From Gavia stellata (lineage: Eukaryota > Chordata > Aves > Gaviiformes > Gaviidae), in assembly GCF_030936135.1 (NCBI RefSeq), contig NC_082603.1, forward strand, positions 20,364,880 through 20,428,879: DNA of 64,000 nt, given 5' to 3'. The notes below the pieces were generated by a model. That model ran no database searches, was not told where the DNA came from, and saw only the letters and a list, made by a program, of their open reading frames with translations. Within the stretch, counting starts at the first letter, position 1, and each line of letters begins with the position of its first letter. Positions 10,445 to 57,115 of the stretch are shown one piece after another. The translations under genes and the position numbers were made by a program.

Positions 10445-13400
10445 TTATAAGTGAAATTTTCTTCTACTTGTGTCCATTTCTCGGCGCTGAAATTTAAAAG
10501 AAGAGTTATTAACCAGCAAATTCATGCAACAGGATACAAACAAAAATGACCACTTCAGTTTATAGTAGGGCAGGCAGTGAAATGTGTCACAGTTACAGTG
10601 TAGTTGAGTCTTTGAAGTCAGCTTTTCAAGACTCACAAGGGAGAAGAATTAAGAGATTAGTGATTTAGAACTAAAAAACATGTAGCAGTTCTGTCTACTG
10701 ACAGTAGACAAACTGTCTTTAAAGCAAAGAGAATTACCCATTTCATGGTCTACACCAGGTGTATTAGAATTTTCCTTCCAGTATAGCTTGGGTACTCACT
10801 TTTAAGTTTTGCCAAATCAACTGCAAGTCCACGGTAAAAATGACTGGAAAAGTAATTTATCATTGCCTAGAGTAATACTTCCATTTCACTTGAAGATATG
10901 CAGAGGTCAGTGTTACTTTCACTATTAAGAAGTGACATTTATGTAAACAGCTTAATCATTTTCACATTATGATTCTTGCATTCACCTTCCACAAAAATAG
11001 CTCTAGTCAAGTTTACTAGGCTTCCAATAATAGCTTATACCAGGGCAGCGTATTTCACATTTGCTTATATCTGTGTATGTTAAAGAAATTACGTTCTGCA
11101 AATAAGCAGACAAGGTATATTGATATTCATCATCCTTGCTATTTTTATTTTTGACTTGCGATATAGCAGAATGCTTCTACTTTGCATATTTCTCAAAAAA
11201 TATTTCGGTTAAATACAGTTCTCAATCCAGAAGTGTTTATACTGCTTTTTTAGGCTAAGATTTGTGGTTACATTTCACGTCAGATTTAGTCTCCGTTCCC
11301 AAGCAGGACTATTACCATTACTTAGGACATACCTTATGAATCCATTCATACTCTCCAAATTTGGAATCAAAGGTTCCTTTTTGAAGAGACCTCAGCTTTA
11401 ATGTAAAACGTGGCCCAAGTTCTTGAATTCCCACTTTCTTTTCACTCTTGAAGATATATCTTGGGGAAGAAAAAAATAAGAATTAGGAAGCAAGTTACAA
11501 GAAAATTAATCTCATTTGTGAGTTTTGTGGAAAATGTCACCTGTGGAATCTGAAAAAGATGTAGTCTCGCTGGTTGTGAAATGTAGCTACTTGTCTTCCA
11601 ATGAACTGAGGGTCATGTGGGAAGAGAGAGGCAAACATGCGACCAACAGAATGGCCAAGTCGTGTTGTAAAATTATTCAGGATTACTTCAGGTACATGTT
11701 CTGTGGGCTCCTTCCCTTTTCGCTGAAATGAAAGTAATGGATAAGAATGCAAAGAACAGATTGAATGCAAAAACATTATCAAAGAAGAGTTTGAAATAAA
11801 ACTGAAGACAACCAGGGCCAACTTCTTGTAACAGGGCTTCTTCTAACATGCCCTAATCATTTTTTCAAAAACAACCTAAGTTTCTATACAAGTGAAGGAG
11901 CAGCTGGTAACATAAGGATCTTCAGTTCAACAATACAAATTGAATGAAAAAACACAAATAATTTTTACATTTCCTCTCTCCTGCACCAGCTTCCACCTCT
12001 GGCAGCACACATTACAGCAAATAATGCAGTCTACCTATACCAACTAAGTATACAGGACTAAGAGTATATGGGATTCTTCTTTAATAAGAACAGATGAAGT
12101 TTAAAAATTACTTATTGGAAAAGAGAAAACATTTTACTGCAAATTATTTAGGGCTAAGTAAGCAATACTTACTACAGAAGAGGTGACAGGGCTGTAAGAA
12201 TAAGAAAAACTAGGTTTTATTCAAGACTAAAGAACTACATCTATTGAAATATTTTATACTGCTGATTTTTATATACCCTATTGTGTCTATACTATACATT
12301 GGGTATTCCCTATTGACGTAGGTTATCAGCTGCTATTTATTGGCATGACTATAAAAATACTTGGCAGTTAAAGAAAATTAGCAAATAACTATAAAAATGG
12401 AAATACGCTGCTTCTAGAAGTAGAATATACTAGTCCCTGGCCTCCTGTTAGCTTACGAAAAACACACCTTTACAAGATCAGCTGAATCGTACAGAAGTGC
12501 AACCAGTTTTGACAGTTCAAGTAGACCGACTACCCATTTTTTTTAATCTGGTTGGAGTCTCACCTTTATTTCTTTACGCAAACGGACACTACTCATTCTA
12601 AAATGAGCAGTTGGACCATCAGGCAGATGACTTAAAACAAGACCATCTGTTCACAGAGTTAAAAAAAAAAAAGGCTGGTAAAATTCAACATGTAATTTAC
12701 ATTGTCTGCAAAATGCAGTATTACATTAGAATATTATATCCATAATCTATGCCTGATTTACAAGGTTTCACTATATTTTCAAACCTACATTAATAAACTA
12801 GTTAACTAGTGTTTTGAAGTATGTCCATTAAATAATAGCTAACCAGAGTTATCTTCTATCGTTTTCTCACTTAGTAATGTTTTATCTAGTCAGCAAAACT
12901 AAATGGAACTTCCTGATCAGAAAAACTCGTTAGTTAAATTTATTGAAATAATAACAATGTTTATCCATGCATTACAAACTAAAAAAAAAAGCCAATGCAC
13001 TTTCTTTAATAATTCCAAGTTCCATTAGCCATCAGATATTCAAGTTGGCACAGCAACTTTTAACTCTGTAGTTACACTGTAAGCTGCACAGTGAAAAGAA
13101 AAAATCCAGAATAAAGTAGATCTTTGATGCATACTAAAGAATTATTTTCTTTCCCTAATAGGCCTACAGCTAGTATATATATTTTAATAAATACACAAAA
13201 GGATACTTGGTATTTTGCGATCTTCATTAATGACGATTAAATCTGTGAAGTCCCTTGCAATACACTGTGGAATAATTCTTTTCAAAGCCAGTCCTCTTCG
13301 ATAGTAGACATGCGAGTTAGGTATAACAGTAGACAGTTGTTCACAGAACCTCACTGTCCTCTGCAAAACAGGGGAGTTAAATTGCAATGTGGTAAATACA

Positions 13401-30300: not shown

Positions 30301-33300
30301 GTGCAGATCCCATATGAAATATAATCTGAAATTAATGAGGAGGCCTTAGTTAGGGTACACACTCCCATGGAACATTTTCCTCAAACACCTAGCATTATTT
30401 GGAATTTGGTTTATTTGAAAGGGTCTATGTTGTCAGACTTATTTTGCTGACCAATAATGAAGGACAGAGGGGGACTTTTTCTTAAAGAGCTAAAATAGGC
30501 TTACGAGGAGCTGTTTTGTTTGTGGGGCAGATGAACTCACCCATCAAGAGTATAACAACCTCTCCAGGTTGTACATTACACACATTATCATACAGTGACT
30601 TGATACTGTGTCTTATTATGCAATCCGGGGAATGGAAGAAGCATAAGGAGTAATCCAAAGGAAAGAGAGGGAAACTAATTCTGCTGTTAGCAGAAGAATG
30701 GCACCTCTGTTCTACTTTGCTGTATGGTGCTGTATGGTGCCAGTACCAAAAGAAGACCTGCAGAGATGCTTGGAAATTAGTTCCCTCATCTTGGCTTTCC
30801 CACATTGTTTTTTCACAGCATTTAGCAGACAATTCTTAGTCCTCAAGGGAGATCTTGAATCTCCCTGGAGAAGAAAAGATTCTTTCTATCCATACCGCTC
30901 ATCTTCCTCAACACAAGGCAGGATTGAGGAGATACAGCTTTCAGCCTTCATTTTGCCAGAGACAGGCTTTGAAAGAATATCTTAAATTACTGAGATGTAA
31001 AAAAAATACCTTTAAAGGTGGGGATATCGCGTCTTCCTGATTTGAGCACTGAAAGTAAAGCCATGAACAGCAAGAGAGAGAGTGTTCACCAAGAGGAGGT
31101 TCATCTCTGCCCAGCTCCTGCATGGTCCTGCCTCAGAGAGGTTCTTCTGTCAAAGAAACTGCCCACGCACATGGCCTCTCTGACGTCTGTCCTAACAGCC
31201 ACCCTGGCAGCGCTGGGGACAAGGCTGTGGTCAAGCCACGATGTGAAATTCCTGCTGGGACATTTCCACCGTGTCGGGACTACACTACCATGCTCTGAAC
31301 ATGGTTTGTGTCATAGACCACGAAAGGTTCAGATTTTATCCTTCAGGTTTTATGCGTGATTCCTGTGTCTTTGAAGTTCTGTTCCCACTGAAGATGAAGG
31401 CAAATTCCCGCTGATATTAATGGGGTTAGAATGTGTCCTTGTCTCTATTTTTGCTGTTGTTTCCTTTGTTGCAGTAGACCTATTCCTTTATTAAAGCTTT
31501 TGCCTGGGGGGAAAAGAAAAGGCATGTTACTAAATAAATTATGAAATATTTACATTTGTGAAGCCAACCCCTTATGCCTAGCTCCTCCTCTGATATTAAG
31601 ATGACACTTTTTATAGAGCTACAGCTTCTATACTGCCATTATTCCTCTGTGGATCCAAGACCGGGAGGTGACAAAACCGCAGGCCACCATGAGCCAAGTG
31701 ACAGTAAGTAATATCTAGGAATGCTTGCTGATTTTGACTCAGTACAGTGAGAAACAACTATATTAGACCGATGGTGGTTTACTTAGTGCTGGAGAGCAAG
31801 GTAGGATCAGAGACGAAACCAAAGAGAATGTAAAACTGGGAAGGTTTCTGAACTAAGCTTGATTTTTACCTGAGAATAAAAGGCCATATGTTGTAGAGAT
31901 ATCTGTAATAATAATCTCAAGAGCAAAGTGTTAAAGGCATCAGTTTGCTTATCACTGTTTATGTTCTGTTTATGTTCTTTTGTATTTACTTTTTTGCCTC
32001 CAGTTCTCTCAATGCCACAAGAATGAATGAAGCTAGCTTTGGTGTCACAATCCATAATGAAATGATCTGCAGTTACTCTTGTGGATGTTTTGCATCTCTT
32101 GTTTTCATTGTATTTTTTTATTGGCTTTAAACCTTAATAGTAGCTTCCTTCTTTAAAAAAAATGGTTTAGCATTTTGTTCAAATATGTGTGGTTCAAACT
32201 GTTTAGCTTAGCTTATGAATTTCTCCCTCCTAGATTTACATATTTAATGCTTTTGACTTTGCCTTGCCCCAACTCTTGTAGGTTTGGTAACAGACAGGTA
32301 GCGACTGTCTCTGCGGGTGTTGGTTTGTTGGTTTTTGGTTTTTTTAATACTTGGCTAAGTCACTTCAGTTTATGCCTCTCATTTTTATCTCTCTGGGACA
32401 TAGCCTATGGAGGCTGTATCTGTAAAATGGATAAACGTTAAGTAACTATCATAGTAAATGAAACATCCTGGTAACTGGATTTCTGCATAGTTAATTCCTA
32501 ATAGTTCTCTGTCACCAAACTCAAAGTCTCTGACCTCCCTGGTGTCGCCCATCCTAATGTTCCTTCTGCTCTTCCCTTGCTTTTTCTCTTTTGCTCACCT
32601 TCAGTTGTCTTGTTCTCTCTTCTGAGTTTTCTCCTCCATTTCTCCTGCAAGCTCTCTTTGCTCCCGTTTCTCTGGTTCTTCACGTCTTTGGGCAGTAAAG
32701 AGGAGGGCAGGTTGGTGGGCAGCTGGGAACTGTAGTAATTGTCCCTATTTGCTGTGCAGCATTTCTTCCATGGTCTTTCCTTGGAAAATGTCCCATGCAA
32801 AACTGTCAGTTCCCTCATTCTCACCTTGACTTTCATGAAAAAAATATTTGGAGTAGTTAGAATGCAAGAGAGGAAAAGGTGCAGATTTCCTTTGCACAAT
32901 GCCTAGGATTTACAAGGTCAGTATGTGAATTGGGGCAGTTTCCAGAGCAGGGAAGGAAACAGTTTCTGAAATGTGTACTGATCTGGGCATTTTTAATCCT
33001 GAACATGAAGTGGTGGACAGTAGTGCTGAGCATACTCAAACCAGTGCAAAAATACATTTTAAAAACTGCGCTATAGCGAGAGAAATACTGATTTTGGGCT
33101 GGCAAAATCTTAGCCCAAAAAGGAAACCTGAAAAGAGGCAGACACAAAAGAGCCTTGGAGCTAAATACTCTTACACTTTAGAAAGTCAGAAGTAAGGAAC
33201 AAAAAGAAAACACTTGATGATAGGGCCTTTAATGAGCTTTTGGCAGGTTTTGGAATGTCATGGGGAAACCATGTACTGCTGTAATGTGACATGCTTATTT

Positions 33301-38719: not shown

Positions 38720-41700
38720 TTATATCGATGTGGAAGCATCACTGCAGCTTTCATAGTGGATCATCAAATGTCTGAAGGCTTTGTAGATGTGTTCGTTCTG
38801 CGTACAGATGAACCCACCACTTCTCCAAGCTTGCTCGGCAGCACGGTTTAAATCTCCGATGCAGGTCCACTGATCTTTGTATTCCTTTGAAACAGCCCAT
38901 TTGGAATGATCATTAATGGAATAAAAGGTGGAATTCAATGGTGTCCCTATTAGGTTTATGTTGTAGACGTGGTAGTTGAGAGAGCAATTTGAGGGGAGTT
39001 TTTGGCCGGAATGCTGCCAGGATTCAGCCAACAAATCGGTCTTCAGTTCCTGAGCCACCCAGGCCACGTAGATATCTGTGGAATAACACAGGGTGTGGGA
39101 AATTAGTCTTTCACGTTCCTTCATTTAAGAGGGGACTGAAAAGCATCGCCTAAACTGGGCTTGTTTCATTCAAATGCATGAAGTGGGGCAGAAGGGATTT
39201 TGCCCCCTCCCCTTGTTTTGACTTTTGTTTCAGAAGTTCATTTCTACTTTTCCTCCTTCTCCTGGAAAACCTGTTACAAACAATCAGCAGGAATAAAAGG
39301 AAAGGAAAAAAAATTCAAGCCTTCTTCATAACAAAACCAGATGATTCAAACCCCATTTTTGTTCTTTATTGTTACTGTTGAATAGCAGGAAATAAATTTT
39401 CTGAAAAATCCCATTATTGAACACCTTAAGAAGGTGTTGGAAGGACCAGACAGCTTTTTTGTTTTGTGGGGCCGAGAGAATATTATGATGGGACACCTTT
39501 CCCTGCTCTCTGTTACATTTATTTCTGAAGCTGAACTTCTTTTTTCCCCTCAGAGAAAATACTAATTGTCAAAGAATATATTAATCACTTATTACTTGCT
39601 TGAGAATGTGTGGCAGATAGAGCAACAGGTTCTCTTACCATCTATGTACAAGTGTGACTTTGCAAAGTGGAGAAAGGTTTCCCTGTGAGCTGACTGGAGT
39701 TTGGAGAGGTGGCGCAAGGGGACCGAGGGCAGCCTGGACCCTGCACAGAGCTTTTGCAGATTTGGGAGATCAGCTTGGAAGATGTTAGGGATGGAACAGC
39801 TGTAGATTCCTGGATTATAACTCAGCATCTGTTGGTCTGAGAAAAACCCAAAGAAATGAACACATACAGAATTAAAATGGGTTAAAGCAAAGGAATCAAG
39901 AGAGTAAAGTTCTGCGTTGGAAAGGAGACCTAAATCCTTCTTAATCTTCACAGCCTATCTCCTGGAGGAGTTCAGTGTCAAAGTATCTTATTTTAGCAAC
40001 CAAAACCTTGTTTAATTGCTTTGTACTCTGACTGGCCTTGCAGCACGTAGCCTGGCTGGGAGAGTATGCTCAGGTTTTTCCACTTACACCTCATTATTCT
40101 TAGCAGAACTGTTAACAGGTGGTCTCAGTCCACTGCCACTTCCACCCGTGCTCATCTTCAAGCCTCTAAGCACACAGTGCTCAGACGGCATAGTAAATTC
40201 AAGCCTGTCCGTATTTACAGGAGTAGTTTCCAGTCAGTTACGGTTGCCAAGCCACATGCAAACAGAAGAGCTGCCAAAGGGTCTAGTGTGGTTTTAGGGA
40301 GAACAGAGCTTGACTTTCAGCGTCTAGATTGACTTAGCAGAAGAAAATTACTTTTCTGTACAGTGTGCACCTTAACTGTAGAAGCCCTTGCCACAGATAT
40401 GGTAAAGAGCAAGGGAACAAATGGGCTTATTAAATGAGTTCATGGAAGACCAGTCCATCAGGAACTTTCAGTCTTTCCGGCTCGGGAAATCCCTGAACCA
40501 CAGATTACCAGAAACTGGGAGGATGGAGCAGGAAAAGCATTACTGTATGCCTCCCATGTTCTTGTTCTCTTTCCCTAAACACACGCATAGATGTGCTTCC
40601 ACAAACAAGAACCTGGTTCAGATGCTCTGGGCTGTGGCCAGGCTGGCCATTTGCACAGCTTCTGTGTTTCATTAGTATCATTTGAGGCTTGTAACTGAGA
40701 AAAGAGTGAAAAACAGTGTGAAAAGCTTTAAGGAACATACCAGTATGATTTCTTATAGCACCTTTTGATAGTCCCTTTTCAGGATTCCAGTACCAGATAT
40801 CACTGTCAGATTGTTCTGAATCTTATGGGTATAGATTTCTTTTTTTTATTATTTTTAGTATTGGTATTTTATGTGGCAAAAGGTATCTGGGGAAACTCTG
40901 GGTGATATTTATTCCATACTTCATATTCTGATGTGTCCAGGCTACTACTCCAGCTCACGCAGTGGTTGCCTTACATTTTAGACAATTGCAGCTGAATGAG
41001 CTATTACTGTTAAAAATTATTAACTTTATATTTCCAAAGCATTTTGTATGCACGGACTGAATTTACCCTTGATACACATTTGTGACTATTATTATCCCAG
41101 TAATCCCCATGGGGAGATGGAGACAGAGTGGTAGGGTAAATTTCCCACATTCATACAGGAAATTGTTGGATAAACATAACTGAAGCCAAGAATGCTGTTT
41201 CCAGGCCCCGCTTGGCTTCCCAGTCTGACAACAAAGGACAAGAACAAGCAATTTTTGAGACGAAGCCTCAAGGAAAGCAGAGAGGTGCAGCAGGGCAAAG
41301 GCTTTCTTAGGGAGAAGCTTTTCATACCTATTTCTATGAACTGGTCATATTTGAAGGTTATACAGATGGCTGTCTGTCCGTAGGACTCCCCAGTAGCTGG
41401 ATACCCATAACCATCCTCAGGGATGGGAGGGAACAGGGGCACGCTGTGAATCACCCAGAAGCCTTGTGATTTGTCCAAGAGCAGAAATCCTGTCAAAGAA
41501 TAGTTATTGCAAATGAGTTAAGGGGGAAAAAGCCCTGCGATGATACGCTGTGTCCTACTTTGGATTTGCTGCTGCAGACACCACACTTCAATGTGTTAAT
41601 GTCCACAGTAAACTGGCTCTAGAGTAGATTAATGGATTATAGGAGACACTAATATTGTATTAAAATAGCATTAATTCTGTCTTGCATAGCCTAACTCAAA

Positions 41701-44700
41701 CTGTCATTTTTCTTTTGAAAAAAAATCTTTTAAAAACCTTTTCTCTTTCTCTGCTCAAATGTTATCTTCAAAAAAATACAGTGATTTAGTGGCTGTGACC
41801 CTCTCTCCACTGCTCATTTTCCTTCCCTTCATATATTCACTGCGTAAGGGGAAACAAATGTGCCTTCCCCAGACCAAATTCTCCTCCGCGGGGAAGCAGC
41901 AGAGAGACTGGCTGTGCCTCCCCCTGCAGCAGGGTGCTCCCAGGAGGAGCACGGCTCCCGAGCCGTCCCCATTGCTGCAGCCTGGAATTACAGCCCTGCA
42001 AAATATCTTCGTCCCAGAGTTAGGCTGGGCAAACCTCTTCTGCTTCCTCAAGGGAACGTTTAGACCGCCACTGAAATTTACACTGATCTGAAGTCTTGCT
42101 TTACTTTAACTGCATACTTTAGCACTTCCATGATCTTGGCAGCGTTTCTTACCCCAGAGAGAAAAAGTTTGGAGGGGTTTATGTTTAGGGTGCCTTTCCC
42201 TTCACATCTTGTACTGCTGTTGCCATTAGGCTCAGGATGATGTGGTCTGTACTCACTGAAAGGAGCTATATGAGTTTGAACTCTTGAAAACAAAGAGACC
42301 ATAAGCCCTAAGAGTTCTTCAACACAGCACAGGCATAGCAAAACCAAAACAGAAGCTACAGTGTATATAACTATTCAAGAAACCATGCATCATGCAAATC
42401 ATTCTCCAGTTTTGCTTTAGGCAGGGATTTTAGATACGCAGATAGACAAACAGACAAGTAGATGCTATCCACAGCTTTAAAAAGGAGAAAATAGTAGCTT
42501 GGGACTCTCCCTGTACCTTTGGTATGTCCTCTTTTCCACCCGTCGGAGTCCGATTCAGGGACCTCATCGTTGTATATCACATATGCAATGCTGTTCTTCT
42601 GCAGTAAAACACACATTTCTGAAACATGACATTCAGTAAAAGGAAAGCATTTAAGCGAACATCTTCTGCTGGATTCTCCCAATTCAGCTGACACAGTCTC
42701 TGCCGAAGTGACATTAAATAAACCTGAAGACTCAGCCTCAGGGTCCTGCTTAATATAAAGTGAAAGTTTTCTCAATCATTGCAGTAGCCCTTCCTCAAGA
42801 GGTAGAGTATGCTCACTAAGACAATTTACATGGGTTTATTGGGCACTTGCTTGCAAAGAAGTTCCCCCCTTCTTTTTTTTTTTGTGCCTCTCTCTGATTT
42901 AGCAACCAGATCCAGTGAAAATGTTTGCTGAGGAAAAATAGACATGACAAGTGTTCTTATGAAGGTCAAGCAATTAATGCTTTTTTGCAAAATATTTGCA
43001 TATGGCCACACCTTATTCCCCCTGAATAGAGAACTTCAAAGGAGTTGGGACGTGTTTCCCCTCCTGATGTACTTTGAGTTTGTAAACAGTTTATTACAAT
43101 TACAGCGAGACCTGGAACAGGACAGGTGATTGGATTGCCAATATTTGACTGGCTTCTGGGAATCTCTTCTACATAGAAATTAATGGCACCCTACCACTAA
43201 CCCACAGCACAAATGCAAAGACACACCCAGACTCCCAAGAATACTATGTAGATGGTAAAAAAATAACTATAGGCAGATCTTGTGGTATTTTATAATCGCT
43301 TCACACAAATATAAATTAGTTGTCTGACTGGGGGGTGGGGAAAAAAGGCCTAACAAGCAGCATGTCACTGCTGAAGCAGTCACAGTGATTTCAGGGGGGG
43401 AAAGCAAAACCCAGATTTCATTTGAGATAGAGCGTGAAACACATGCACATGGGAAAGCTTAGGATGAGTGTCTGTAATAGTCACCGCTGGCCCTGGTCTG
43501 AGTTCACAGCCAGTTCACGGCTTCAAATGTTGCCTGAACATGAATTGCAGAGAAGAAGCCAAAGAGACTATGTACCAACGCTCATTTTTTTAATGGGCAA
43601 TACTTTAAGTGTGTGAAAGGCTTGACTAGAAATTAGAATTTCGAGGCTAATTTATAATTGTAGCCAAAACAGTGAATAATCTGCCCAGCTGTCGAGACGC
43701 TCCCCTTGACATGTTTTAGTTCATCTAGTTGGTCAGGTCCAGCCATACCTCTACGTGCTTATTTCGGCTGGTTTCATTTCATTTGCATGAAATATCAAGT
43801 AAGTGTACTAACGAAATGATAGTTAAATGTCACTTGCCTCGGATTCGTACATCTCGTACAGCTGCTTCAGTGTTTGTCCCAGAGCGCTCTGTGTCATGTT
43901 GATGAGGTATTTACCAAGCTGCCACTGCGGAGCCAGGGCGTCCATGTACATGTATTCCAGCCCCAGCAGCGGAATCTCTCCTTTGGCATGTTTCGGCAAC
44001 TTGTAAAGAGCAAACCTGCAACAGTGAAGAGCAATTGGGTTTTTTACAACCATCCGGCTTGAATGTGTAAATCAGTATCTCCTTCTCACCTGAGGTTTTA
44101 AGAGAAGGGTGACTCTGGGGTTGCCTACGTGGGAGGGGGACCAGTGCCACCAGTGTGTGCTGTGGATGTCTCGGCCTCGAGGAGGTGACGCGGTGCAGGG
44201 ACCAGCAGCAGTTCAGCAGCGTGGTACCTGCTGCAGACAGGTTTGTTCCACTTCTTAGCAAGCAAGGGAGGCTGATTTGGCATCAAACTCCTGTTGCTGT
44301 GGCCAGACTGCTGCTGGTACCCCAAAAGAATTTGAGGTAGCCCTCGTTTGGAGTCCTGTTTAGCCGTCAAACCCCTATTGCTCCTGGTTCTGGTAGAGAA
44401 CCTCAGGTCCCAAACTCAGTCTGACATTCTCATGGTCAACCTGGCCACCTCTTACCAATACATTCTTATTACAGAAGTATAACTTTATATGAAATAGATA
44501 AAGTTATGTATTAAAATAGTAAAAATGCATAATGTTATATTTATACATATTAAAACCACAAAATAAGTATCAAGCTATGTGATGTTTTTCCTGTCCTACT
44601 TTTCATAACAGACTCGCACTCTGCTGAACTGTTGCAGACTGGATATTTGCCATCCATTAGCCAGAAACACAAATCTTTTCAAAACTGTGGAGTACTCAAT

Positions 44701-49985: not shown

Positions 49986-52900
49986 ATGGAAATATTTTCA
50001 TCACAGGTAACCACAAAAATAAAGGTCATAAACATTGTTTATATTTCATTGACTGAGCATAACTCAGGCTTCCGCTGAGTTCCTTCACAACTGTCACATA
50101 TTTTCTCTGCAGATCAAGGATGTAGAAGTCCTCAACTGCGAATATGGCAAGAACACAATTAAGTTCCTTCGCCTTCATAGAGAAGGGAAGAAGCACTTCG
50201 TTAAAGAAGTGGAAGTGTGCACACATCTCCGGCTGACTTCTGCTCATGAGTACCTGGATGGAGACAACTCTCTTGTGATACCTACCGACACCATAAAGAA
50301 TATTGTCCTTGTGTTGGCCAAAAAAAATGGGGTATTCTTTTTTTTTTTAAACTAGTCTTGCTGTTTCTTATGACTTCATTTGAAAGTGTTTGTTATACTA
50401 ACTTCTTATTTTCAAAATGCATCAAAAGAATCTCTCTCCCCATCAGCATGTCAGATCAGCACTAAAGTCACCTTCAGTGATTTGGGAGAGAATTTTTCCT
50501 CCTCCACTGCTTATCCTGTGGACTCCTCCTTAGTTTTCCAAAGCCTTTTTTTTCCACAGAGCTACTAGTATTTTTTGTAGATTTTTCATATAAGAACCAT
50601 CTTTTTTTTAATTTAATAACACGTAATACTGCGTTACTCCTATATAGCACTTTTAAACAGAAGGTGTCAAAGCATGTGAGACTCCTCTTAATTCTGTTAA
50701 CTGTGCTCTTACCTCCCTCAGTTGCGGCTATCGTAATGACAATCTGTAGTGCAAATTCTCTGTCTCAGTAATGAAATCCCATCTTTAGCCTGTAAAGCTT
50801 AATCAGAATATTACTATGATTATTTCAGCATTGTATCCTCAAAGTGTAAGGCTTCTGTAGCAGTTTCGCTCAGTCCAAGGACTGCAGCTCGCTATACCAC
50901 AGAATGGGAGATTTTTGACGTGACTCTGTAGCTGCTATTTGCAGCGTATGCTGCAAGCTGATCAAATGACTAGGCACGGTGCGCAAAACCAGAATTGAGA
51001 GAAATCTGTATTTTTAACAACACTGATCCTTCCCAAATATTTACAACAATCAGAACAATCTACTTTTGTACACGAGGTAATTGCTTCTTTCTAATAATAC
51101 CGTTTGCTGTCTTAGATCCCAACTTTAGAACAATTTGCTATAGATATCTGCAAACACTTCATGACAACATTTTGCCAAGTGGCGTACGTCAAAACCTACG
51201 TTCAAGAAGTACCATGGCAACGTCTACACGAGGTATCTAAAATACTAATACATTCCATTTGTTTATGCTGGAGCCATTTGTCACACTGTTAGTTCCTGTT
51301 TTCAAGTTAAGACGTTATTTACTGCACTTTTACTTACATGTCTGCTCTAAATTGCAGAACGGCATTCCCCACATCCACTCGTTTATATGCGTTCCTGATG
51401 GGATCCGCTTTTGTGAAGCTGAGCAGTGCCGAAATGGTGAGAAAAGAATTTGCAACTTCCCCTACTTCTCTGTAAATATTTCTGCCGATGAGAGATGAAG
51501 ATGGCTTTAGAAATAGTGAAAGGTGTTACAGGGCTTACAGCATAGCCAAACCTCTCCAGAGGTCTAAACCAAAGAATATTTTTATGGTCTAGTTTTGCGC
51601 TCCTTGATCTGAGACATGGCTGAAGAACTAATGTAGCTCACATTTGCATGTATATCCTAAACATATACTGATTACAACAGCACATACAACAGAACTGCTA
51701 TATATTATCACATGATTTAATAGCCTTCTGAGAACCGTCTGCTCACTTTTTTACGTTATACTATATTGTGCAGTCTCACTATTATCATTACCATATAGAG
51801 ACTATATCATGGAACCACACTGCTGTTGGCCAATTGCCTAGCTTGCAGTTATTTTCAAAACACTGCCTTGGTTTTACTTCTAAGAAAGATGCAGTTTCAT
51901 TGCTGCAAGTCAGGCTGGCTTGAACATCGTGAGCACTCAGGTCTAGGTGCAAACAATTTTTCACATGAAAATACTCCAGAGTGTGCTTAATATTTTTGCA
52001 TGCCATGTGTAAACAAAGCACCGTTTGGCTTCACGAAGAGTTTTGTGATACTTAAAAGACATAGGCTTTAAAGCTCAACTGTCTGTCCATAAATTGGCAT
52101 TCTAAAGGGGGTGTAAAAATTATCTCTTCTTGCTATGATTCACAACAAGAGCATAAGTTCAATCTCACTGTCTTGGTGTTTCATTTAACCCGTCTCTCAG
52201 ACTACTGGGAACTGAGCTGAGACCACTACATTATTTCACACAGTGGATTTAGAGGTTTTAGGCATTAGTTCAGTATCTGTCTATTACTTTCCTCATGTAA
52301 CTTAGAACTATTTCCCATCCTGCCCTCTCTCCCTATTTTCCTAATGTGTCAGTGTTAGGACCAGTGCCAAGACCAGTTTCACTTGCAGACAGGACACAAG
52401 TTCTGAAAGGCTCATTTGACATTGTCCCTGTGTTCCTGCTGAAAGCAAAGAGAGAGCCCGTACAAGTCTCCAGTGCCTCTTGGCCTAATCTTTTTTAATG
52501 TTCCTAGTAATGTTAACTACTGCTGTATTTTTGGCAGCCTCAATAGTATTGAGGTTTCTGGAAAATGTTAAGAAAGAAAACTGGAAAAAAAATTAAAGAA
52601 AAATAATATATGCTTTCTTGAAAAGCTGCTGCTCTTCATGTACAGATTGAATTAAATTTTTCATCACCTTGAAAATTCAACAGGATATTCTGCAATTTCA
52701 GGTTCTAGACAAACAAAAAGCCTTTAAGGCTTATTGAAGAAACTGTCTTTCCTTCTTAGTCTTCCCTTCATGTAGCCCTTTAGCTGTTTCTTTAGGATTC
52801 CCTGCCTAGGTGAGCAATAACCAAAGAGAAGATTTTCAAATCCCTTCTCTATCTTTAGCATCCTCCTATGCACCTATCAGCCAGACACAGAAATTTATTT

Positions 52901-55900
52901 CCCAGTTAATGCTATCTTTTAACACTTTTCTCATCATTAAAAGAAACCTAGCGAAGCTTAATAGAATTACAGGCTTATTTTTTGCCATTATATCGGCTGA
53001 TAAGGTGCTCACAGTTTTTTGGAAATTGAAAACGTCATAAGTAACTTAATACAGTCAACATTTAACAACTGAAGACAGCACAAGCACAAAACATACTGAA
53101 AGCACAGCACAGGCTGTTCACCTCGAAAACTTCGCCCAGGCGTTATATTCTTCGGTGCAAGTTTCAGGTCGATTGCTACACAGCCAGCCGGTCAGCCAGC
53201 CTTTCAGTAAATCACTCATTGCAAGGAGCTCTTTCAAACAAGGCTACATATCTGAATATGAAATAAATATATCTCCAGGTTCACTGATAGTATCTGCATT
53301 ATATCAATACCTGTGAATTACAATCTTATACCCAAGCAATGAATTCATCCAGATCTGAACAAACCCCAGAATATCCTGTCCAAGGACAGTCTCTTCTTCG
53401 GACTTTTTTTAAAGCTTTAGTAAATAACAGGGGGATGTAGCCAAAATTATAGATACATCTCTTTGGACTCTTTCAAGAACAATAATGAATGTAAACAAGA
53501 GAAGAAATAGATAAAATGCAGTTTTGATAATTTCCAGTGACAGAGCAGTTTAAAAAAACCAAACCTCTAAACAATCATGTCATTTAGAAATATCCATCAC
53601 AGTGGAATTATTTCCAGTATAAATTCCTGCAAAGATGCAATTTAAAGACAAAGTCTGTCAGTCTTCCCAGTCAAAGGCAGGATTACTATGCACCAGACAT
53701 ATTCAAGGATTAATTTTGAACTAGCTAGTGTGAGCACCAAGAGCAACACAGAAACAGCTGCATGGGCTTCAGCCACTGACAGCCTGTACAGGCTCTGGAT
53801 AAGCCTGCATGCCATGAAGTTTCTGTTTTCTGAATCTGATTTTTTTGGCAGCTCTGGTCAGTGAAATTTTCAGTTATCAGTTTGGTGTGCTTTAAATGAC
53901 TGACTGCTTGAAATTGTTTAGCCACCACCCAAAAGGTTTGTCAGAAGAAAAAGTTCAGGACACAACTGTTTCGTCTTTAGAAGATGATAATCCACCCATG
54001 CAGCAGTGAGCTACAACAGCACATTTTATAAATAGTGGCTAAGAGCTAAAACACCGTCAGTTTGAACCTGTGGGTGGCATCAGCATCAGTGCCAGTCCCT
54101 GCTAATTAGCTGAACTGCAAGGATTTGCATTGGCTCCTCTCGTTCTTATGGATGCAAAACTCACAACAGGCTGGGTATGTAAAGCGAATTTCTGACTGAG
54201 GCTCCAAGTCTTTGTACAGAGTTTCTACACTCGTCTACATTGTTAGAAAAGGCTCACCTCACCTCTCCTGTACTCCACAGCCCTAGCAGCCTGTTTCATT
54301 TCCTTTTAGAGCAATTAGTAGTCCCTGAACTGACATCAGCAAGAGCCAACCCGATGCATGTCCCAGCTCCAAGGAGGTCAGATAAAGGGTGTCCTTACCT
54401 CTCCTTGACTGCAGGTCACTTGATGGGATTCTCTGCTTTCTGCATTAAGTTCTGATTTCAGTAGTTTCTGTCTTGTTTCTTACCTTTCTGCTAACATCAG
54501 TGTGCAGAAAGTAATTTTCAAAGTAGCTAGGCTTGCAACAGAGACACACGAGTGAGTCCTGGAGAGACCACTTCATGGCTCTGGAGATGTCACTGCAAGT
54601 GTGCTCCAGAGGTTTTGTTCTCTCTACCTGAATAGGAACTCAGACTGTCTTGTATTTTTGGATCACAGGTCCTCTGGTTGTTTTTGCTGGAATTAAAGAT
54701 CTGAAACTTATGAAGACAACACAGTCTGGATTCGAAGGCTTCTATAAGAATGAACACACCACACTTCCTGAAAGGCACGACAGGATTTTATGTGGAGAGC
54801 TCTTTTGCAAATGGTCATATGGCGAATGCAGAGATTTTGACTTTGATTGCATATGGTATGTGTCAAATCAAATAATATTTATTACCTAATCTATGATCCC
54901 AAAGCCCCTCTATACAATACAGCAGGTGTAAGGGCCAGATCTGCAGTTGCTGTGCACCAGCTACTCTCACAGATCTCAGTGGTGGTGGTAAGCCCCTGGT
55001 TCCAGGGGTGAGAGGCATGCCTCGGGGGGTACTCGTCTCTCTGCTCGTGCATCAGTGGACAGTATTTAAATGGACAGCTCAGTGTTCAGTACAGAACACT
55101 TCAGGAGAACAAACTAGCAACTAATTTGTTAAATACTTTCAGCAAAACACCTATTTGTGAATTATAGAGCTGGGGGGTGGCATTTGGAGGTGACAGGACA
55201 GAGAAATTGTTCTTCCACAAAATCCCATGTGCTATTATTTGTCAGAAAAGACAGAGAAAATTTTAAAAAAACCCACAGTAAAACATTATGGATCTAGACA
55301 AAGACAGCTGATACAAGGTTTCGTAAGAACTTGTGTTACCTCTAGGAACAAAATCCGTGAATGTATCCTTGAAGCCTTCGCTGGGCCACCCGACAGCGGG
55401 GAATATTCACCCTCTTACCAGAAGACTGTCAACTGTATCCAGATGCTCATCCTTTCCAAAGTGTCACAGGTAACTTCTTCCCTCCTGTCAATGTTTTGCT
55501 TAAACAATAATGAATGTTAATCGGACCACTGAGAAGACCAAAATGAGCCTGTTATTTCCTCTGACAGTTCTAAGTAAAACTGGAAACTGTTTGGTGGTAC
55601 ACCTAGATGGTCTGAAAAAAATATGAACACACTGAGAAGTTCATATGCTGCTCCCTGGCTGTGAACATAATGGGGGAGAGTATCACTCAGTGCTTGGCAG
55701 GATGTGAGTAAAAGTGAAATGGATGCTACAACATTGCCTAAATGTTCAATAGATTGCATTTTATCAACTGTACATAATGGGGGGGGGGGGCGGAGTTGCA
55801 TTGCTTTTCTTTACAGTGAGTGAAAAGATTGCCACACTGTTGGCTGAGAAGGTGCCCTAATTCATTGTCTCATCTGTTTTCATGGTTTCAGGTACAGGTC

Positions 55901-57115
55901 ATAGAAGTCATCTTGAACAACACTTTTTATAATGTCGTAGACATGAAGAATCTAGGCTTGACCAATGACAAAGAAGTAAGTAAATGCTCCAAACACAACT
56001 TGCCTGGACTCTTCAGAAATACTCAGCCTTAAAGCATATCAGCAGTTCTGCATAGAACAGAGTTAAAGGGAGCAAACTTTCTCCCCCAGCCCCAGTGAAA
56101 GTTCCACCTTACCTCTAAAAGAGATTTACAGAAGAAGGATAATTGCCTTCTTGTGTTGTTGATAAAAGCTAAAGCAGCAAGGTAGAATGCTTTAGAGATC
56201 AAAGGGATTTGTAACAGAGACTACCTCTGAAAAATCATTGTTTTCTCAACTGAATTTGACTTTTACTGATAATGTCAACCTGTGCAGTTTTAACCAAGCA
56301 GAATGTGTCATGGCATCCTTCCACATAGCCAGGTAGTGTGAAAAGCTAGCCCAGTGTGGCTCTTCTTTCTGCTCCATTGGCAGCACCACTGAAGCCAGGG
56401 AGCATCCTTGGTGCAGCGGGGTTACAAGTAGGTTAGCTAGGCCACAGGCTAGCTCTAGGCAACAGAAGACCAGCACTCTAAGGGAGCAGTGAAGGGATGT
56501 TTCTGTAGCCATTAGGAGCCAAAGTAGATTGGTCCAACAGTGGACAAGGTATAAGCCTGGGATCAGGCAGAGGGTGAGAGATGTAGGGGATGAGGTGTAT
56601 TTGCTCCTCCCTCTACAGCTGCTCTAGCTGACAGCCAGGTCCAGCTGCAAGTCTGTTAGGTTATCCTCACATGACAGAGAGAAACTGGGTTATTCCATTT
56701 TGCATCAATGGTCTATAGTCTGTTTGTGCTCTAGTCTCTCTCCCTAAGTCTTGTGATTCTGCTGCTATCCTACCCTGCCCTTGCCCTCTTTCAGGTGGAC
56801 TTTATAGATCCATTTTCACCTGAGATAACACCAAAATCTACCATTGATATTCATAAGGGAAGGGAAGGGCCTGGACACAATTTTGAGAGGAGGTGAATAG
56901 CTGCAGTTTCTGCTGTGACGGTGCTGCCACATCCCTGTCTCAGAAATGACTTCTGTGTTTGTGCTCATCCCCCTCAGGTTCTGGTTCCAGTGGAAACTCC
57001 CTACGGCTCCTGTGCTTGCACGCTCGGCAGGAAGAAGTTCTTAGAAGCACAAGGCCACGTGCTAAAAGATGAGAGGCAAAGTCAGTTTGGACTGGCAGCT
57101 GCCCAGGGAAACTAA
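49986..57115 (+). CDS. UOX: UOX, urate oxidase-like (intact frame, catalytic His lost)
   Basis: Exons 2-8 are clear: 50113..50331, 51116..51232, 51358..51436, 54669..54855, 55346..55469, 55892..55975, 56978..57115. They join without stops to 315 residues through GT-AG introns. Exon 1 is uncertain: either 49986..50006 (MEIFSSQ, then GTAACC) or 49789..49839 (MVEGDSVKVYIARTNPK, then GTGACG). Uricase oxidises urate to 5-hydroxyisourate in peroxisomes. Landmarks kept: EYGKNTIKF (catalytic Lys, 50149-50151), IPTDTIKN (catalytic Thr, 50284-50286), KTTQSGFEGF and TTLPE, DRIL (urate-binding Arg), SPSYQKT (urate-binding Gln). Exon 7 reads ILNNTFYNVVDM where mammals have SLPNIHYLNIDM, so the catalytic His is Phe. 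Exon 8 keeps ETPYG, but the mammalian SRL-type targeting end is absent. The protein runs to 45 residues in this exon (mammals about 24) and ends AAAQGN. Birds lack uricase activity, which fits. The gene is divergent from DNASE2B. Confidence 0.93.
51437..54668 (+). other. UOX intron 4
   Basis: The 3.2 kb intron is by far the largest of the gene; the other UOX introns within exons 2-8 range from about 0.1 to 1 kb. It is AT-rich with no recognisable mobile element or nested gene. Donor GGTGAG and acceptor CACAG are canonical. Confidence 0.8.
55779..55790 (+). repeat. Poly(G) tract in UOX intron 6
   Basis: A run of 12 G residues, followed by CGGAG, about 100 bases upstream of UOX exon 7. Such runs can form G-quadruplex-like structures and vary in length. 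It has no obvious role here. Confidence 0.9.

Follow-up and report, generated by a model that had tools for sequence, protein, structure and literature searches.

What is an intact uricase gene for in a bird, an animal that does not degrade urate? The question is posed by a 64-kb stretch of Gavia stellata DNA (hereafter the window: positions 20,364,880 to 20,428,879 of the forward strand of NC_082603.1), whose plus strand carries a uricase (UOX) gene of eight exons, 963 coding bases and a 320-residue product. A sequence-only reading had proposed that a TTT codon in exon 7 replaces the catalytic histidine of an otherwise preserved gene, that catalysis is thereby lost and that the protein has been kept for another job. 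The substitution and the intact frame are borne out here, whereas the loss of catalysis is not. Repurposed uricases were already described for chicken and other sauropsids by Mori et al. 2023 (PMC10517255). We find that the window gene is the orthologue of the chicken protein, and conclude that it is probably a uricase that was recruited on the sauropsid stem lineage to a redox function in cornifying skin and slowed by Phe259 (chicken numbering) together with Tyr230 and Cys287.

Identity of the gene and its relay residue

The gene is open from end to end. Its product scores 180.2 bits on the uricase profile PF01014 (cut-off 25). None of the eight exons is interrupted, and we found no internal stop, frameshift or broken splice site in the 963 coding bases and the 14 splice dinucleotides, all of them canonical (seven of seven introns are GT-AG). 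The first reading that the gene is not decayed therefore stands, as do the exon 7 boundaries first proposed and the retention of Asn257 and Tyr260 beside the changed residue.

Protein comparison identifies the gene as the orthologue of chicken cysteine-rich urate oxidase (CRUOX; LOC101747367). The closest solved protein is PDB entry 8ofk, 'Uricase' (E 1.1e-201), with 314 residues aligned gap-free and 34 differing (89% identity). With both chicken termini supplied from the primers in PMC10517255, 35 of 320 residues differ, one of them the primer-derived last residue. We take 8ofk, whose sequence is also that of 8oh8, 8oih and 8oiw, to be the chicken protein because its 18 cysteines match chicken CRUOX both in number and at the eight positions given for it (PMC10517255). 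All eight of those cysteines (14, 41, 98, 141, 197, 204, 287 and 289) are present in the window protein. Its cysteine content, 15 of 320 residues or 4.7%, compares with about 5% for CRUOX and about 1% for other uricases (PMC10517255). The two birds do not have the same set: against the 18 of chicken, the window protein lacks Cys149, Cys223, Cys240 and Cys270 and has Cys128 instead, which means that some of the enriched cysteines come and go among birds. Both genes also place exon 1 beyond DNASE2B, the arrangement described for sauropsids, and a C-terminal extension of about 20 residues with loss of the type 1 peroxisomal targeting signal (PTS1) is a CRUOX trait (PMC10517255). The window extension ends ...QSQFGLAAAQGN, with a final QGN and no SRL/SKL-type PTS1.

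Where the Lys-Thr-His relay of canonical uricases (EC 1.7.3.3) has its histidine, the window protein has Phe259, with Lys18 and Thr63 both in place. We read this from the frame and from a five-row alignment of the window protein, chicken 8ofk, 4mb8, 43dy and 5ll1 (the last of which we take to be zebrafish uricase); the column is His in the three non-sauropsid rows and no gap lies nearby. The chicken segment reads NNNFYNVVDM and that of the window NNTFYNVVDM, so the phenylalanine is not peculiar to this bird. Since 8ofk has it, it was present in the chicken protein used for expression, crystallography and assays. The change from His requires at least two base changes, by way of Tyr or Leu. Relay and binding residues are otherwise kept (Lys18, Thr63, Phe165, Arg182, Gln231 and Asn257), in line with the first description of an intact Lys, Thr, Arg and Gln. 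Relative to canonical vertebrate uricases such as 5ll1 and 4mb8, the latter a reconstructed mammalian uricase named in PMC10517255, the window protein thus retains membership of family PF01014, the Lys-Thr pair, the Arg and Gln that bind urate and the oxygen-site Asn, at 45-52% identity (a range that includes 43dy). It departs from them in His259 to Phe, Val230 to Tyr (codon TAC at 55416-55418), Ile287 to Cys, its cysteine richness and its missing peroxisome signal.

A neutron structure of uricase shows what the missing histidine does. In that enzyme, H256 hydrogen-bonds K10, and the K10-T57-H256 triad, together with a chain of waters, provides the proton path between substrate and peroxide site; the oxygen site is built from N254 and T57, and the purine is bound by R176 and Q228. 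The H256/I288 numbering is presumably that of Aspergillus flavus uricase. Of all these residues the window protein lacks only the histidine, H256 being position 259. I288 lines the cavity of the same enzyme (PMC9634612), and by alignment its place is taken in the window by Cys287, the cysteine nearest the peroxo hole in chicken CRUOX (PMC10517255). Cys287 therefore joins V230Y and H259F as a third pocket change common to both birds. Across the alignment, 63 columns have one residue common to both birds and another common to the three non-sauropsid rows, V230Y and I287C among them.

Phenylalanine at this position is unusual among the uricases viewed. Of ten PDB uricase rows, only that of chicken has Phe and the remaining nine have His, but those nine are not independent: 2yzb, 6oe8 and 1vax represent a single Arthrobacter protein, or almost so, and 43dy hardly differs from 23bt. 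A profile search of 149 actinobacterial genomes found uricase in 21, including the centre genome of the set, already known to have one. His occupies the position in 22 of 22 C-terminal-domain loci from this sample, and Arg, Gln, Asn and Ile are likewise invariant at the equivalents of 182, 231, 257 and 287; the equivalent of 230 is V in 11, L in 9, A in 1 and M in 1. This sample replaces a larger actinobacterial count, His in 80 of 80 loci (the best 80 of 557 confirmed), because one of the two search patterns behind that count itself includes the His. Even there, the 20 loci that match the other, His-free pattern, ten of them solely that one, all have His. A vertebrate uricase alignment run against prokaryote genomes gave 149 pattern-matching stretches, none of which was confirmed.

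The histidine did not go alone, and the initial picture, in which one residue was singled out and everything else spared, does not hold. Taking 5ll1 as outgroup, we count 80 changes found only in the window protein and 16 found only in 4mb8 (P 6e-11), and cysteine gain, new termini and the two further pocket changes accompany them. Between the two birds the pace is even: 6 and 8 unique changes with 4mb8 as outgroup, 9 and 7 with 5ll1. From these protein comparisons, the pattern looks like a burst of change before the two birds split and steady evolution after it, as expected for co-option. The 35 differences between window and chicken are conservative, with a mean BLOSUM62 score of 0.8 against -0.35 for random missense changes; none of 20,000 draws, made with an assumed transition weight of 4, scored as high. 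A low Ka/Ks is quoted from Keebaugh and Thomas 2010 in PMC10517255.

How the substitution might act, and what else could explain the gene

Chicken CRUOX shows what a uricase with this phenylalanine can do. It oxidises urate weakly to 5-hydroxyisourate and H2O2, with a KM of 12.5 uM and a kcat of 0.03 per s; the zebrafish enzyme turns over at 3.95 per s, more than 100 times faster (PMC10517255). Complete loss of catalysis, as claimed in the sequence-only reading, is thus ruled out by the activity measured for the chicken protein, a result which that reading had itself named as refuting it, whereas its suggestion of another job for the protein is supported by the published repurposing. Given a reducing agent, the chicken protein also returns 5-hydroxyisourate to urate, which the zebrafish protein does not (PMC10517255). 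It is a tetramer, binds xanthine and 8-azaxanthine, aggregates through disulfides under H2O2 and on exposure to urate itself, and forms intermolecular disulfides through Cys98 in crystals (PMC10517255). The gene is expressed in chicken feather epithelium with none in liver, and the pattern of skin or feather but not liver has been reported in canary, anole (tail) and two turtles as well (PMC10517255).

We propose that Phe259 accounts for much of the difference in rate. With Phe in place of His, Lys18 would have lost the residue that it hydrogen-bonds and that accepts its proton, and the Lys-Thr pair could not exchange protons with the peroxide site at the former pace. Turnover would fall about 100-fold, with substrate binding through Arg182, Gln231 and Phe165 untouched. 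The chicken defect lies in kcat and not in KM, as expected if the binding residues stay and the relay residue goes. Together, Phe259, Tyr230 and Cys287 would remodel the oxygen pocket, so that an oxidase once fast and irreversible became a slow redox protein able to interconvert urate and 5-hydroxyisourate. A bolder and less likely version, which we advance tentatively, makes the His-to-Phe change the switch of co-option itself, disconnecting the proton relay with the help of Tyr230 and Cys287. Urate, peroxyisourate and 5-hydroxyisourate would then stand in slow reversible balance, the protein, driven by urate, would generate or sense H2O2 and so control disulfide cross-linking in feathers and scales, and a restored His would yield a fast, irreversible uricase.

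Several observations weigh against giving Phe259 this role. Our literature search found no assay of Phe259 and, among the papers and titles it reached, no mutant data on the relay His. Chicken CRUOX oxidises urate, if slowly, so His is not strictly required, and its authors treat catalysis as the work of a Thr-Lys dyad (PMC10517255). The low kcat could instead stem from cysteine chemistry, from Tyr230 or from some other of the 63 changes, and the sauropsid comparison of the residue consists of two bird sequences, window and chicken. The signs of constraint are mixed as well. The absence of stops between window and chicken has a chance of about 0.18 and is by itself uninformative. The two birds differ no less often at positions on which the three non-sauropsid rows agree (17 of 188 against 11 of 97, P 0.54), so the old constraint map no longer predicts bird changes, which fits changed constraint but also some relaxation.

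The strongest competitor, close to the published reading, lets cysteine enrichment and Tyr230 set the slow, reversible catalysis, with Phe259 a mere passenger. We consider it somewhat unlikely. The chicken-specific reduction of 5-hydroxyisourate, the placement of Cys287, Cys14 and Cys289 near the pocket and the dyad view of catalysis all speak for it (PMC10517255). However, the same authors, who call Tyr230 the sole active-site exception, found that Y230V did not restore activity and judged Tyr230 not the only determinant (PMC10517255). The replaced residue, moreover, is His in each canonical row viewed and shares protons with the catalytic Lys, and cysteines are no obvious cause of a 100-fold lower kcat at normal KM.

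Alternatively, the protein may have a purely non-enzymatic job, as a urate-binding or disulfide-crosslinking scaffold in cornified skin in which catalysis is a relic. A scaffold would fit the gain of cysteines, the aggregation seen under H2O2, the feather keratins expressed alongside and the retained purine binding (PMC10517255), as well as the lost relay His of the window. Both birds nonetheless keep Lys18, Thr63 and Asn257, residues that serve oxygen chemistry more than binding. Aggregation is triggered by urate itself (PMC10517255), so slow catalysis may be the trigger. We regard a pure scaffold as unlikely; it is compatible with the Phe259 step of the co-option we favour, and the odds we assign to the two overlap.

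An early or slow pseudogene, functionless and open by luck, is highly improbable. A bird that does not break down urate and a relay residue that is gone are what such a gene might show; the missing stops between window and chicken do not tell against it, and constraint at anciently invariant sites is not visibly stronger between the two birds. Against 4mb8, however, the gene has accumulated 143 amino-acid differences and no stop, where about 7 are predicted at a crude neutral rate of 0.049 nonsense per missense change; the crude chance is about 0.0009, before indels and splice sites are counted. The conservative differences from chicken argue the same way, as does a chicken protein that is folded, tetrameric and active, from a gene expressed in skin (PMC10517255). 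Hominoids likewise excrete urate, but their UOX pseudogene carries nonsense mutations (PMC10517255), whereas the window copy is intact.

Least probable of all is that the His comes from a different exon 7 or from another uricase gene: turtles do have two UOX genes (PMC10517255), but an N-x-H-Y, N-x-H-F/W or PN-x-H motif, the first of which had been named as the thing to look for, occurs in none of the three forward frames between the end of exon 6 and exon 8, and the uricase matches in the bird's own genome, in an exon-by-exon search that can miss a diverged copy, all fall in the window gene.

Locus, neighbours and the urate pathway

Exon 1 lies 18.4 kb upstream of exon 2 (Table 1). Its 15 coding bases are identical, 15 of 15, to the start of the coding part of the chicken CRUOX forward primer, which contains ATGAGCCAAGTGACA (PMC10517255). 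Those 15 bases followed by GT have a single mismatch-free site in the window, at 31689, and two further matches, both with 3 mismatches. Between exon 1 and exon 2, the minus strand carries DNASE2B exons (38.7-42.8 kb).

Table 1. Features of the UOX/CRUOX locus, in window coordinates
Feature	Position	Strand	Remarks
UOX/CRUOX coding exon 1 (MSQVT)	31689..31703	+	GCCACCATG context; GTAAGT donor; beyond DNASE2B
Open stretch with last DNASE2B exon	38720..39124	-	Pfam DNase_II E 1.8e-42, profile positions 213-326 of 326
Open stretch with further DNASE2B exon	42371..42775	-	Pfam DNase_II E 2.1e-5, 24.3 bits against cut-off 23
UOX exon 2	50113..50331	+	Cys14, Tyr16, Lys18, Cys41, Thr63; catalytic Lys and Thr kept
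UOX exon 3	51116..51232	+	Includes Cys90, Cys98
UOX exon 4	51358..51436	+	
UOX exon 5	54669..54855	+	Phe165, Leu176, Arg182 (urate binding) kept
UOX exon 6	55346..55469	+	Ser229, Tyr230 (aliphatic in canonical rows viewed), Gln231
UOX exon 7	55892..55975	+	Asn257, Phe259, Tyr260; AG before, GTAAGT after; encodes VQVIEVILNNTFYNVVDMKNLGLTNDKE
Codon TTT (Phe259, chicken numbering)	55925..55927	+	Replaces catalytic His
UOX exon 8 including stop	56978..57115	+	Cys287, Cys289, C-terminal extension ending AAQGN

A small in-frame exon-like stretch with an ATG, at 49986-50006, was set aside as a candidate for exon 1 once the chicken exon 1 had been located at 31689. This plus-strand stretch, 106 bases 5' of exon 2, reads ATG GAA ATA TTT TCA TCA CAG and then GTAACC; it could be an alternative first exon (MEIFSSQ) or chance. 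Elsewhere in the window, a Brix-domain exon within 11537-11842 has a Pfam match and is RPF1 by eye. RPF1-like and GNG5-like exons at about 4.7-16.5 kb on the minus strand were recognised by eye only, and three other stretches checked in that region gave no Pfam match.

The bird's whole genome (1.32 Gb in 1185 contigs) provides the pathway context. Pfam scoring exon by exon gave three uricase matches, in exons 2, 5 and 6 of the window gene, and therefore one copy as far as such a search reaches. One URAH-like locus was found (C15:22425501-22425921, hits L014 and L015), whose last exon ends PYSYTTYRGS; URAD had no match in this genome. Sauropsids are described as lacking the OHCU decarboxylase and expressing the HIU hydrolase (PMC10517255), and the presence of a URAH-like gene with URAD unmatched fits that published pathway. 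The same transthyretin/URAH family search of the genome that found the URAH-like locus returned no transthyretin. Birds have transthyretin, so searches of this kind can miss genes, and the absences of URAD and of a second uricase are only moderate evidence. Separately, contig C18 (L006) holds an alpha-A globin frame of three exons, whose PDB matches, 85 sequences at the threshold, include alpha-A hemoglobins.

Implications for uricases in birds and reptiles

PMC10517255 starts by presenting the open uricase genes of birds and reptiles as unexplained, and it leaves the cause of slower turnover open. What seems new in our analysis is that CRUOX is recognised to have Phe at the place of the relay His. 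The main text of PMC10517255, in the portion available, contains no H256, H259, His259, F259 or N257, and no other paper on the CRUOX protein appears among the titles listed by our searches. Seen in two birds, Phe259 is a concrete single-residue candidate for the 100-fold slower turnover, and it may explain why the chicken enzyme is slow but not dead. It also bears on whether the third member of the triad is essential or merely accelerating, and so on the choice between the Lys-Thr-His triad of the neutron paper and the Thr-Lys dyad of PMC10517255.

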